A DNA stretch of 35,748 nt, from positions 1-35,748 of IMG/VR virus record IMGVR_UViG_3300037963_000974; one strand, written 5' to 3'. The DNA is from a virus. Shown here in pieces: positions 28,896-34,705 of the stretch (position 1 is the first letter of the stretch; each line of letters begins with the position of its first letter). The translations under genes were made by a program, and so were the position numbers. The notes under the pieces are model-generated. The model had not been told where the DNA came from and did not search any database. It saw nothing but the letters and a program-made list of their open reading frames with translations.

Positions 28896-29342
28896 ATGAA
28901 CTACAATGAAAGAGATTTACACAAAGTTTATAGCCTCGCTAAGCGAGGTTTTAACTTTAAGGAGAGCTTAGAAGCTTTAAAAACAGATAGGATAAAAGCA
29001 TGTGATGGAGATAAATTGCAGATACTTGTTAATAGTATTTGTAATTATTATCATGTAACCATAGAGGAGTTGACAGGTAGGACTAGATTTGGTTATATTG
29101 TTGAAGCTCGTAGGATGTACTGCTATTTAGCAAGAGTATTAACACCTAAGAGCCTCAAGTCTATAGGCAAGAAAATATCAAGAGATCATGCAACTGTACT
29201 ACACCAATTTAAACAGGTTAGCGGATATGTAGATGTTAATGATAGGACTATAATATCTGATATTGATGATGTTACTTTAGATTATTATAAGAATTTAAAG
29301 ATACATGAATTAGAAACTAATAAAGAGTTAATAGATGTATGA
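28896..29342 (+). CDS. DnaA domain IV-like DNA-binding protein (first copy)
   Basis: 148 residues without any AAA+ ATPase motif. Residues 48-107 match the DnaA DNA-binding domain: NYYHVTIEELTGRTRFGYIV, then EARRMYCYLARVLTPKSLKS, and the signature SRDHATVLHQF (95-105), close to the DnaA GRDHATV motif that reads DnaA boxes. It may bind host or phage origin DNA without ATP control. The beginning of its message contains a strong hairpin plus T-run (28934-28952). It overlaps the second copy by 8 bp. Confidence 0.8.
   Translation: MNYNERDLHKVYSLAKRGFNFKESLEALKTDRIKACDGDKLQILVNSICNYYHVTIEELTGRTRFGYIVEARRMYCYLARVLTPKSLKSIGKKISRDHATVLHQFKQVSGYVDVNDRTIISDIDDVTLDYYKNLKIHELETNKELIDV
28934..28952 (+). 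promoter_or_regulatory. Attenuator-like hairpin inside the DnaA-like gene
   Basis: CCTCGC (28934-28939), loop TAA, GCGAGG (28943-28948), then TTTT, within the first 19 codons. GC-rich stem plus T-run has the form of an intrinsic terminator and could limit expression of the initiation genes. Confidence 0.5.
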
Positions 29343-29718
29343 GTTTAAGGATATTAAAACAGCAATAGAGTTAACTAAATTAGGATTATCAGAAAAAGAG
29401 ATTAAAAAGTTTTTTAACTTTGAAAAGAAAACTTATACTAATCCTAATGATATTTTATACATCATTTGTGATTATTTTAAGGTACATCCTAAGATGGTTA
29501 CTAGCGATTCTAGAGATCCATTACATGTATTAGTTAGAAAGTATGTTAGTTACTTTGCATGTAAAAAATTTAAGATTATACAGCAAGAAGTCGCTTTTAT
29601 TTTAAAAAGAGATAGAACAGGTTTAGTACATTATAATAAATGTATTCAAGACTGGATAGATATTAAGGATAAAGAAACTTTAGAGCATATTGAAAACATT
29701 AAAAAACTACTTACATAA
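29335..29718 (+). CDS. DnaA domain IV-like DNA-binding protein (second, divergent copy)
   Basis: 127 residues with the same plan as its neighbour: ICDYFKVHPKMVTSDSRDPL (44-63), LVRKYVSYFACKKFKIIQQE, then ILKRDRTGLVHYNK (89-102), where RDRTGLVHY takes the place of the DnaA RDHATVLH signature. The changed signature suggests a different target sequence. Also lacks an ATPase domain. Its stop shares one base with the initiator start. Confidence 0.7.
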   Translation: MYEFKDIKTAIELTKLGLSEKEIKKFFNFEKKTYTNPNDILYIICDYFKVHPKMVTSDSRDPLHVLVRKYVSYFACKKFKIIQQEVAFILKRDRTGLVHYNKCIQDWIDIKDKETLEHIENIKKLLT

Positions 29719-31989: not shown

Positions 31990-33396
31990 ATGGAAAAGTT
32001 AAAAAGAACAAAACAAGCAAAATTATTTAATGACAAAATTGAGTTAATAACATTAGATTCTGTAATAGGATCAGGATATGAGGAGGATGTTGCAAAATTG
32101 GCTATTGAAGATAAAATAGCATACAGAGCAGCCCGTAAAAATATGCAAATACATTCAGCTATTGTATTAAAAATAAATGAGGAGTTTGCTGGGTTTTTTA
32201 CATTTGAAATTAATCATGATGCTAAAGAATTTTGTTTACTTCAATCAGCAATGTATCCCCGTTTTAAAGATGTTGAGATATATTCTATGATGGTAGATAA
32301 AATTATATCACATAATACTTTTGGTTATCCAATGATAATGACAGTTAGTAAAAAACACGATTTGGAAAAGCCATCAGTATTTAAGGATTTAGGATTTAAA
32401 ACTAACATAGATAAGAATGATTTTATTTATATGGTTTATGGTGAGTTATCACAAGTAAGATTAAAATTATTAGCACATACTGCAATGACTAATCTATGGA
32501 AGTCAACATCTGGCTTATGGTTAAAAAATAAAAGAGAATGGAATAATAAAATAGAAGAAGCTGGCAAAAAACATAATGTATTAAATCCAAAATTTGCGAG
32601 TAGAGAGGGATGTTGGCAAGGCTCTGCGGGTTTTTCAAATGTTGTTTTATCAAAAAATGAAATAAAAAACGGTAAAATAGTACATAACAATAAAAAGTCA
32701 TTAAATGGTAATGCTTCTGTATTAGATCCTACTGCATGTGAAATTATTTTAAGAATGTGTATGCCTAAAAATGGTGTTAGGGTTTATAATCCTTTTGGTG
32801 GTGGTGTTCAAATGGGCTTTATAACTGGCTCTCATGATTTAGAATATTTAGCTACTGATATTAGACAGAATCAAGTAGATGCTAATAATAAAATATGTTC
32901 AGATTTTTATCGTACAAGATGGATTAAAGCAGATAGCTCAACTTATAAGCCTAAAGAAAAATTTGATTTAGTTTTTAGTTGCCCTCCGTATTATAGGGTT
33001 GAAAAATATATTGATTATGATGGATTACCTCCAGAGGGCGAGATAAATCATTTAGGAAGCTATGAAGAGTTTAGAGATACGCTTTTTGAGGGTTATAAAA
33101 AAGCTATAGAAGCAATGAATGATAATACTTTTTTTGTAGTTATGACTGGTGATAGTAGAGGTAAAGATGGTGCTTATTATGGATGTGAGGCTGAACATGA
33201 ATTATTTTTTAAAGAGCAAGGCCTGCATATCTATAATAAAATAATTTATTTAGAAAGTGAGTTTACTAGATTTAGTCAAGCAAAAAAAACATTACATAAT
33301 AGAAAGTTTCCTAAAGCAGATCAAAAAATTTATATGTTTTATAAAGGAGATATGAGTAAAATAAAAGAGTTATACCCTAATATTGGAAGAATGTGA
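31990..33396 (+). CDS. GNAT-like domain fused to a DNA methyltransferase
   Basis: 468 residues. Residues 15-150 look like a GNAT acyltransferase fold: SAIVLKINEEFAGFFTFEIN, FCLLQSAMYPRFKDVEIYSM and FKDLGFKT. From about 200 a DNA methyltransferase follows: SAM-binding motif I VYNPFGGGVQ (265-274), an acidic strand ATDIRQNQVDANN (288-300), and catalytic motif IV SCPPYY (330-335), as in N4-cytosine or N6-adenine enzymes. Phage Mu Mom is a GNAT-fold DNA modifier, so a two-step base modification is conceivable. GNAT call is from pattern only. No restriction enzyme lies beside it. Confidence 0.75.
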   Translation: MEKLKRTKQAKLFNDKIELITLDSVIGSGYEEDVAKLAIEDKIAYRAARKNMQIHSAIVLKINEEFAGFFTFEINHDAKEFCLLQSAMYPRFKDVEIYSMMVDKIISHNTFGYPMIMTVSKKHDLEKPSVFKDLGFKTNIDKNDFIYMVYGELSQVRLKLLAHTAMTNLWKSTSGLWLKNKREWNNKIEEAGKKHNVLNPKFASREGCWQGSAGFSNVVLSKNEIKNGKIVHNNKKSLNGNASVLDPTACEIILRMCMPKNGVRVYNPFGGGVQMGFITGSHDLEYLATDIRQNQVDANNKICSDFYRTRWIKADSSTYKPKEKFDLVFSCPPYYRVEKYIDYDGLPPEGEINHLGSYEEFRDTLFEGYKKAIEAMNDNTFFVVMTGDSRGKDGAYYGCEAEHELFFKEQGLHIYNKIIYLESEFTRFSQAKKTLHNRKFPKADQKIYMFYKGDMSKIKELYPNIGRM

Positions 33397-34187
33397 GAAA
33401 GTATAAAGATGAAATATCCCTCTCTAATAATGAGAGGGGTATATGGGATTTAGATACTATTAAAGGTTGTAAGTCAGGTATGGCTTTAAATAAAAAAGGT
33501 TGTTACGGTGATTGTTATGCTTTTAAAACTGCAAATAGATATAAAATAGATTTTAGTACATCAGTAGAACGAAAGTTTATAAATGAAGCTCATAGATTAC
33601 AAATTATAAGACAGATAGAAAAGATAGATATGCCTTTTATTAGAATTGGATGTAGTGGAGATCCTTCAGAAAATTGGAATCATACAATTAATATTATAAG
33701 TGAATTAAAAAGGCAAAAACAGTTATCATTATTTGATATATCATCTAATAAAAAAATAGTTATAATTACTAGGCATTGGAATACCTTAACAGATTTACAA
33801 CTAAAAGAAATTAGTAAATATAATTTAGTTATAAATACATCTATTTCAGCTTTAGATAGTGATGATTTAATACAAAAATGTTTAAAAGAATATCATAGAA
33901 TTAAAAAATATTGTAAATCTATTTTAAGGGTTGTTACATGTGATTTTAATGAAGATAATTTAGAGGGTAAAAGGAGGGCAGAAATACAGCGTAAATTATT
34001 AAAAAATAATAATATAATTGATACTGTTTTTAGACCATCTAGTAAAAATGAGTTTTTAGTTAAAGGAGTTATAAAAGCTAAAAAAATGTCATTTATGAAA
34101 TCAAAAGCCCTTTTAAGTAAATACAATAAAAAAACATTTGTAGGTAAGTGTAATAAATGTATTGAGCAATGTGGATTAAATGTGTAA
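33393..34187 (+). CDS. Cysteine-cluster protein, possibly radical-SAM-like
   Basis: 264 residues, starting at GTG 33393 that overlaps the methyltransferase stop (GTGA). The N-terminus has Cys26 and C-x3-C at 37-41 (GCYGDCYAFKTANRY). A strand FIRIGCSGDPSENW (82-95) and KIVIITRHWN suggest a TIM-barrel-like enzyme. The C-terminus has CNKCIEQC (253-260). Similar layouts occur in radical SAM and DUF5131-like phage proteins, but the spacing is not the canonical C-x3-C-x2-C. Coupling implies joint action with the methyltransferase. A strong hairpin lies within its first codons. Confidence 0.6.
   Translation: MRKYKDEISLSNNERGIWDLDTIKGCKSGMALNKKGCYGDCYAFKTANRYKIDFSTSVERKFINEAHRLQIIRQIEKIDMPFIRIGCSGDPSENWNHTINIISELKRQKQLSLFDISSNKKIVIITRHWNTLTDLQLKEISKYNLVINTSISALDSDDLIQKCLKEYHRIKKYCKSILRVVTCDFNEDNLEGKRRAEIQRKLLKNNNIIDTVFRPSSKNEFLVKGVIKAKKMSFMKSKALLSKYNKKTFVGKCNKCIEQCGLNV
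33418..33438 (+). repeat. Inverted repeat in the 5' coding region
   Basis: CCCTCTC (33418-33424) pairs with GAGAGGG (33432-33438), extended by ATA/TAT after a one-base bulge. No T-run; may affect translation after the overlapping stop. Confidence 0.5.
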
Positions 34188-34467
34188 AATGAAAGAGCTA
34201 ATAGAAGCAAATTATAAAAGTATAGTAGATAGGGGTTTTATTACTCCTACTACTACCCTTTTTGAGTTTTTAGATAAAATAGATGAGGAGGTTTATGAGC
34301 TTAATGATGAAGCTTTAAAGCCTAGAGATAACAGCAACTTACCAGAAGAGTTAGCTGATGTTATAATGGTATGTTTAAACATGGCTAATCATTATAATAT
34401 AGACATAGAACAAGAGATAAAAAACAAGATTGAAATAAACAAACAAAGAGCAAAAAATGGAAAATAG
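34180..34467 (+). CDS. MazG-like nucleotide pyrophosphohydrolase
   Basis: 95 residues: TTLFEFLDKIDEEVYELNDE, LPEELADVIMVCLNMANHYN, IDIEQEIKNKIEINKQRAK. The EExxE and EELADV helices and the final K-x2-N-x2-R match the all-alpha NTP pyrophosphohydrolase (MazG/dUTPase) superfamily. It may clean the nucleotide pool or remove a modified-base precursor made by the neighbouring genes. The start is 34180 (overlap of 8) or the Met at 34189. Confidence 0.75.
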   Translation: MCKMKELIEANYKSIVDRGFITPTTTLFEFLDKIDEEVYELNDEALKPRDNSNLPEELADVIMVCLNMANHYNIDIEQEIKNKIEINKQRAKNGK

Positions 34468-34705
34468 ATTAATATTAGAAAGTAATATAATGTTAGCTTT
34501 ATTAAAGGCTACTATAGAGCAATCTGAATACCTTAGAGGAGAGCTAAAACAAAAGCCTAAACAAGTATTTAATAACTGGTCAAACTTAGGGCATATGCTT
34601 TTAGATGAGCTAGAAAAAAAGAATATTGCTAATGAAGATTATCTAAATCAATTAACGGATGTTATTCATGATGTTTTACATGAGATTAGAAAACAAGATG
34701 ATTAA
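34457..34705 (+). CDS. Small helical protein, unknown
   Basis: 82 residues, helical: ESNIMLALLKATIEQSEYLR, LGHMLLDELEKKNIANEDYL, TDVIHDVLHEIRKQDD. Overlaps the MazG-like gene by 11 bp. Its stop TAA is followed by C and GTTA (TAACGTTA, 34703-34710), resembling the collapsed edges of a cassette junction. Confidence 0.65.
   Translation: MENRLILESNIMLALLKATIEQSEYLRGELKQKPKQVFNNWSNLGHMLLDELEKKNIANEDYLNQLTDVIHDVLHEIRKQDD

Follow-up and report, generated by a model that had tools for sequence, protein, structure and literature searches.

The virus record IMGVR_UViG_3300037963_000974, analysed over its entire length of 35,748 bases (hereafter the window), carries on its plus strand two neighbouring genes that together encode a real, conserved and functionally coupled three-domain module. 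The first gene (31990..33396) encodes a protein of 468 residues, in which a domain with the predicted fold of the Gcn5-related N-acetyltransferases (GNAT) is fused to a methyltransferase (MTase) domain, and the second (33393..34187) starts with GTG and encodes a protein of 264 residues with a predicted radical S-adenosylmethionine (SAM) fold. The TGA stop codon of the fusion (33394-33396) overlaps the GTG start codon at 33393, so that the two frames share the 4 nt 33393-33396; an earlier note on this DNA had described the overlap. The phage is far from cultured phages, since none of the 69 records matched by its portal protein reaches 60 percent identity (24-37 percent for the 12 listed), and the 264-residue protein found no match among cultured-phage records.

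The genes for the GNAT-MTase fusion and the radical SAM protein are adjacent and on the same strand in all 100 loci (L002-L101) collected by scans with either protein, with at least five contigs represented twice. Since many of these loci had been found via the radical SAM protein, a second set was anchored on the GNAT domain (n = 85), comprising 80 viral loci retrieved with the GNAT domain alone, many on the same contigs as those of the first set, and five genome contigs retrieved with the whole fusion. A radical SAM partner of the window type is present in 75 of these 85 loci, and in six of the 75 (L247, L250, L260, L271, L272 and L273) all three domains are joined in one open frame of about 740 residues with the radical SAM part at the N-terminus, followed by GNAT and MTase. 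L247 and L272 are the same, leaving five distinct proteins, and three of the six fusions occur in Desulfobacterota assemblies. These gene fusions show that the GNAT-MTase and radical SAM proteins work together. In six further loci (L213, L228, L230, L235, L240 and L254) a radical SAM gene with the canonical CX3CX2C motif lies directly downstream instead; three of these canonical partners were tested and matched PF04055 with E-values of 4e-9 to 1.2e-6, two of them over the cut-off. Two loci (L234 and L237) stop at the contig edge, and L223 has a second GNAT-MTase at the partner position, followed by the contig end, so that a radical SAM gene stands in every readable GNAT-anchored locus except L223 and L270, which holds a remnant. 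That remnant, of a canonical radical SAM gene, lies between the GNAT-MTase and a MazG-like gene (L270 7398-7664) and may reflect a natural loss of the partner. Among GTDB genomes the 264-residue protein found none as query, and five carry the GNAT-MTase fusion, four of them with a radical SAM partner of the window type; the contig of L269 ends within the partner gene.

Comparison with the two closest relatives gave ratios of nonsynonymous to synonymous substitution rates (dN/dS) of 0.02-0.10 across the GNAT, MTase and radical SAM parts and of 0.02-0.04 for the GNAT-MTase fusion; purifying selection acts on each of the three domains. Together with the adjacency in all 100 loci, this indicates that the pair is more than a chance association. 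In a tree of 83 rows, including 22 relatives coupled to S-adenosylmethionine decarboxylase (AdoMetDC) and 32 without a recognised partner, both drawn at random, the GNAT branch forms one clade (100/100 support), within which L235, the carrier of a canonical partner, is placed on starred branches in the midst of fused members, indicating that the radical SAM partner was exchanged at least once. Common descent of the two partner types was considered, and a profile comparison with hhalign found no kinship (probability 0.75 percent, with shallow alignments), so the change is termed a replacement. The canonical radical SAM family is itself wider: among its 77 loci of 80 with a readable gene, the upstream gene is a GNAT-MTase in 15, another gene in 57 and absent in five, and ParB-type proteins make up 20 of the 73 genes downstream.

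The model of the 264-residue protein has a predicted local distance difference test (pLDDT) score of 92.8 and shows a TIM-type barrel with two cysteine clusters. The top Foldseek match is spore photoproduct lyase (E 1.7e-3), and in a second structure comparison (VIA) all 50 rows read as radical SAM enzymes, with Z-scores of 8.3 to 11.7, the best again being spore photoproduct lyase (222 residues aligned at 10 percent identity, Z 11.7). The predicted SAM-binding cluster, C26-x10-C37-x3-C41-Y (33468..33515), is located between beta-1 and helix-1 according to DSSP of the model, where radical SAM enzymes place the three cysteines for the 4Fe-4S cluster. C26, C37, C41 and Y42 are present in all 95 rows of an alignment of the window protein with 94 homologues of at least 230 residues, and the exact spacing recurs in 91 of the 94 homologues. 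After beta-2 follows the motif G86-x-S-G-[DE]-P91 (33648..33665), which from its position we take to be the GGE motif of radical SAM enzymes, with G86 and P91 in 95/95 rows, G89 in 93/95 and D or E at position 90 in 95/95. The C-terminal cysteines, C253-x2-C256-x3-C260-G (34149..34172), are present in 95/95 rows, as are all six cysteines, and may form a second cluster or a structural metal site; a shorter copy, L020, which was left out of the alignment, lacks this part. Sequence searches of Pfam, PHROG, NCBIfam, PADLOC and PDB gave nothing convincing for the protein, the sole library trace of its family being a weak match to DUF5131 in one of 19 members (E 0.0065). It is classed here as a predicted radical-SAM-type protein by fold and is not assigned to PF04055.

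In the fusion, sequence searches recognise only the MTase part, and the N-terminal domain (residues 15-153, 32032..32448) found no match in Pfam. An AlphaFold2 model of the 468 residues (mean pLDDT 75.2, falling to 54 around motif IV) was compared with known structures by VIA-align, in which NatC, Naa50 and other structures align with about residues 15-155 at Z-scores of 13.9 to 16.0; the best matches are NatC (Z 16.0 over 133 residues) and Naa50 (Z 15.0). The predicted structures, which the earlier note had itself named as a check that could refute its reading, bear out what it had supposed of both proteins, namely a GNAT-like N-terminal domain in the fusion and, in its partner, a radical SAM fold with two cysteine clusters and a barrel-like core. 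The loop that binds acetyl-CoA in GNATs (motif A, [QR]xxGx[GA]) is degenerate in the 89-row alignment, where K/x-D-x-x-I-Y stands in its place, and the domain is classed as a GNAT by its predicted fold only, not as an acetyltransferase. It is nevertheless not decayed, since D41, R46, R49, N51, Q53, N75, H76, E80, C82, Q85, S86 and Y98 are invariant in 89/89 rows and dN/dS for the domain is 0.026-0.043. The tandem GNAT paralogue in L223 reads WKGNGLA at the loop and matches PF00583 below the cut-off (E 0.0023); used as a query, it found itself only.

The C-terminal part of the fusion (residues 157-453, 32458..33348) is a class I SAM-dependent transferase domain, which matches phrog_498 (E 1.4e-36) and phrog_12517 (E 3.3e-37), and PF01555 weakly (27.2 bits in a six-frame search; 24.4 bits against a cut-off of 26.7 in a protein search). 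Motif I, NPFGGG (residues 267-272, 32788..32805), precedes motif IV, CPPYY (residues 331-335, 32980..32994), and both are present in 89/89 rows. Of the motifs I and IV that the earlier note had called intact, motif I is present as such, and motif IV needs correction, as it reads C331-P-P-Y-Y in place of the usual D/N/S-PPY. This is not a peculiarity of the window protein, an idea that was considered and rejected, since CPPY is a family-wide trait common to all 13 annotated phage relatives that were read out; of two unannotated records, L115 has CPPY and L116 has SPPY. The window MTase has both the domain kinship and the CPPY motif of the phage ParB-MTases, and a GNAT fold in place of their N-terminal ParB domain, so that, judged from sequence, it is a branch of this CPPY family by its MTase domain only. 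Like the window protein, the ParB-MTases (phrog_498, e.g. P2559S_66 and that of Pseudomonas phage ZRG1) have motif I followed by CPPY and lie beside an enzyme of SAM or amino-group chemistry; they differ in having ParB rather than GNAT, in many cases AdoMetDC rather than radical SAM as neighbour, and Asp rather than Gly in motif I. Among plasmid records, a relative of the MTase domain (28.8 percent) occurs in just one, from Borrelia turcica (NZ_CP028891.1 23354-24016).

The partners of the CPPY relatives were surveyed in two samples. In the 80 loci that most resemble P2559S_66 of Croceibacter phage P2559S, AdoMetDC is the next gene in 47, and SAM synthetase (MetK) lies just upstream in three, one of which was checked against Pfam. 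All six AdoMetDC genes tested against Pfam, four from this sample and those of P2559S and ZRG1, gave matches. The second sample comprised 80 loci ranked by similarity to AlanGrant gp1, of which eight were dropped because the MTase frame was not recognised; the 72 usable ones have AdoMetDC in none, a pyridoxal phosphate (PLP)-type enzyme (PALP) in seven and an oxygenase in three, so that the 47/80 is valid only for close relatives of P2559S_66. Three of the PALP genes were tested, one of them scoring over the Pfam cut-off, and in AlanGrant the PALP gene overlaps that of the MTase. The position in motif I that is Gly in 89/89 rows of the window family is Asp (FAGD-like) in 46/46 AdoMetDC-coupled members and in 12/104 others, counted over 150 labelled relatives after five frames without a readable motif had been dropped and with related sequences treated as separate, which keeps the statistic from being a clean one. 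We read the Asp/Gly difference as a putative donor switch between decarboxylated SAM and SAM. On the tree the partner labels require four changes for AdoMetDC, five for PLP and three for the oxygenase. Membership of the window in the AdoMetDC-coupled group was rejected, given that Gly and the finding that PF02675 occurs in none of 14 module-carrying records. In phage P2559s the AdoMetDC is a proven enzyme, as it restored spermidine in a speD mutant, and the words "methyltransferase" and "ParB" never occur in the main text of that study, which leaves the neighbour of the gene undiscussed (PMC9992855).

Several arrangements among the CPPY relatives are recorded here in their own right. In Pseudanabaena phage Pam4 (L114 1012-3501) an 829-residue protein carries a PLP domain (462-591) between MTase motifs I and IV. 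A PF05118 oxygenase of the Asp/Asn beta-hydroxylase type lies beside the ParB-MTase in L362 (2797-3984), L369 (4928-6076) and L389 (1936-3075), the oxygenase domain being at the end of the protein and the N-terminal part being unrecognised and GNAT-like by eye. SAM synthetase, ParB-MTase and AdoMetDC stand in a row in L134 (387-3058) and L143 (2452-5244), and SAM synthetase, ParB-MTase and what appears by eye to be a PP-loop-like ATPase in L149 (2458-6210); these compact operons look like a supply of SAM derivatives for DNA modification. A small protein containing a "PTGSGET"-like segment, perhaps a reduced PLP-fold protein, occurs downstream of ParB-MTases in L183 (4825-5313), L187 (2250-2732), L190 (4121-4609), L191 (4747-5274) and L116; the one tested, from L183, had no Pfam match.

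With moderate confidence, we regard the window pair as a compact phage module for DNA hypermodification, in which alkylation, radical tailoring and a step by the GNAT-fold domain would be combined. DNA is the probable substrate, because the MTase is akin to DNA methylases and to ParB fusions, and hypermodification fits better than plain methylation, because relatives of the MTase are coupled to genes for AdoMetDC, PLP enzymes and an oxygenase. The CPPY transferase would use ordinary SAM to alkylate, and most simply to methylate, an exocyclic base amine of DNA (N6 of adenine or N4 of cytosine). Ordinary SAM is the likely donor, since motif I has the Gly found in most relatives without AdoMetDC, and with this donor the radical step most likely follows the transfer and takes place on the alkyl group or the base. 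The radical SAM enzyme would generate a 5'-deoxyadenosyl radical and abstract a hydrogen from either the newly added N-alkyl carbon or the base itself, opening that site to further functionalisation, and the GNAT-fold domain in cis would complete or transfer the group, probably without holding its donor as acetyl-CoA GNATs do. The bulky base may then shield the phage DNA from restriction or other host defences. The earlier note had proposed methylation followed by acyl transfer or radical chemistry; the context of the MTase relatives fits such a hypermodification, and acyl transfer from CoA is doubtful because the usual loop is degenerate. Iron oxygenases also abstract hydrogen, and the CPPY branch with an iron oxygenase may be a parallel to the radical SAM tailoring. 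More tentatively, and as a possibility we would not yet call probable, this would be a new hypermodification, in which the radical SAM enzyme functionalises the carbon just placed by the MTase and the GNAT domain completes the product. The same tentative standing applies to its being one branch of a wide CPPY system with exchangeable partners, namely AdoMetDC, SAM synthetase, PLP enzymes, an oxygenase and radical SAM enzymes. If this is true, radical chemistry on a base that has just been alkylated would be an added means of hiding phage DNA and a chemically new base is predicted, the motif I residue would offer a readable prediction of the donor used by each transferase, and one or two genes suffice to test the idea, given the single-chain fusions and the AdoMetDC-MTase pairs.

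The published system closest in logic is CmoX-CmoA-CmoY, which makes 5-carboxymethylcytosine in phage S-B43, where an MTase-fold enzyme with helpers likewise places a handle on the base for further tailoring (PMC12783734). The window MTase was rejected as a CmoX, which is a C5-cytosine enzyme with SPPC, whereas the window protein has CPPY and a radical SAM partner; that article states that it found no N6- or N4-carboxymethyltransferases linked to CmoA (PMC12783734). A GNAT fold was also proposed for DNA modification in the case of Mom of phage Mu, which modifies N6 of adenine, in an article that carries another GNAT-based prediction besides (PMC7824862). The link to Mom drawn by the earlier note found no support at the level of sequence, where hhalign gave a probability of 0.1 percent in a weak comparison against a single Mom sequence, and the window GNAT differs in being fused to an MTase and in having a radical SAM partner. 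Spore photoproduct lyase, which acts on DNA, has its fold in common with the 264-residue protein, from which it differs in cysteine spacing and in the MTase and GNAT partners. For thymidine hypermodification, work by Lee et al. in 2022 is said to describe radical SAM enzymes and acetyltransferases that act after 5-hydroxymethyldeoxyuridine (5-hmdU), steps on phage DNA resembling those proposed here, except that in the window module an MTase rather than a thymidylate-synthase-type gene would start the pathway. A route through 5-hmdU was rejected, as PF00303 occurs in 0/14 module-carrying records, which are possibly fragments. In the open-licence literature, with most subscription journals outside that scope, no publication was found that names a GNAT-MTase-radical SAM module. 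PMC10853773 proved to have no bearing on the module. A 2013 survey by Iyer and colleagues in Nucleic Acids Research reportedly predicted, for phages, modifications "derived using modified S-adenosyl methionine derivatives"; the AdoMetDC pairs may already be treated there, and conceivably the module itself as well.

Several observations weigh against a DNA-hypermodification module. In structure the MTase comes closest to tRNA methyltransferases, the fusion was modelled with intermediate confidence, lower still around motif IV, and GNAT motif A is degenerate. The 264-residue protein has neither the canonical CX3CX2C spacing nor a PF04055 match, and its family has no detectable kinship with the radical SAM type that stands in for it elsewhere. 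In L270 an intact GNAT-MTase persists beside the mere remnant of a partner, no partner was recognised for 94 of the 150 labelled CPPY relatives, and the link between Asp and AdoMetDC is partly due to shared ancestry, with only the four label changes on the tree.

The main rival, which we hold to be unlikely, is that the trio hypermodifies the host cell's tRNA or rRNA during infection, a view favoured by Trm11 (Z 17.2 over about residues 157-453) and TrmN as best matches of the MTase and by RlmN and TYW1 among the radical SAM matches; class I MTases are, however, expected to match RNA enzymes by fold, and by sequence the window MTase groups with the ParB-fused phage DNA methylases (phrog_498, PF01555). 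It is also improbable that the radical SAM enzyme converts SAM to an analogue that the transferase then puts on DNA, as none of the radical SAM enzymes known to us releases a SAM analogue for use on DNA. Such donor-making would follow the pattern of CmoA for CmoX, with Cx-SAM as precedent in phage S-B43 (PMC12783734), and probably of AdoMetDC for the CPPY relatives, in which the coupling goes along with the Asp in motif I. The window motif, however, has the Gly that prevails among members without AdoMetDC.

Plain methylation may occur within the CPPY family, given its many members without a recognised partner, and GNATs commonly act on proteins. We nonetheless give little credence to the MTase of the window making only N6-methyladenine or N4-methylcytosine with the GNAT and radical SAM parts acting elsewhere, on a host protein or a small molecule, as all three domains occur in single chains and one radical SAM type is replaced by another at the same place. 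Least probable, and indeed quite improbable, is a role in repair or removal, in which an enzyme akin to photoproduct lyase would undo DNA damage or erase the mark of the MTase: spore photoproduct lyase is the best structural match, but at 10 percent identity a match in fold shows no function, and damage repair would leave the constant linkage to the GNAT-MTase unexplained.

Downstream of the pair lies a gene on the plus strand for a MazG-like pyrophosphohydrolase (34180..34467; PF03819, E 7.1e-8), which starts inside the 3' end of the 264-residue frame; its open reading frame and the two of the module were all found where the earlier note had placed them. The MazG-like enzyme that the note had counted as a third component is real, but it was rejected as part of the module, since it adjoins the pair in only 10/100 loci, and it is probably just a neighbour. 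It is followed in the window by a gene for an 82-residue protein without assigned function (34457-34705), relatives of which occur near the pair in 11/100 loci, upstream or downstream. Further upstream in the window (28896-29718), two consecutive small proteins match the C-terminal helix-turn-helix of DnaA (PF08299), the second below the cut-off.

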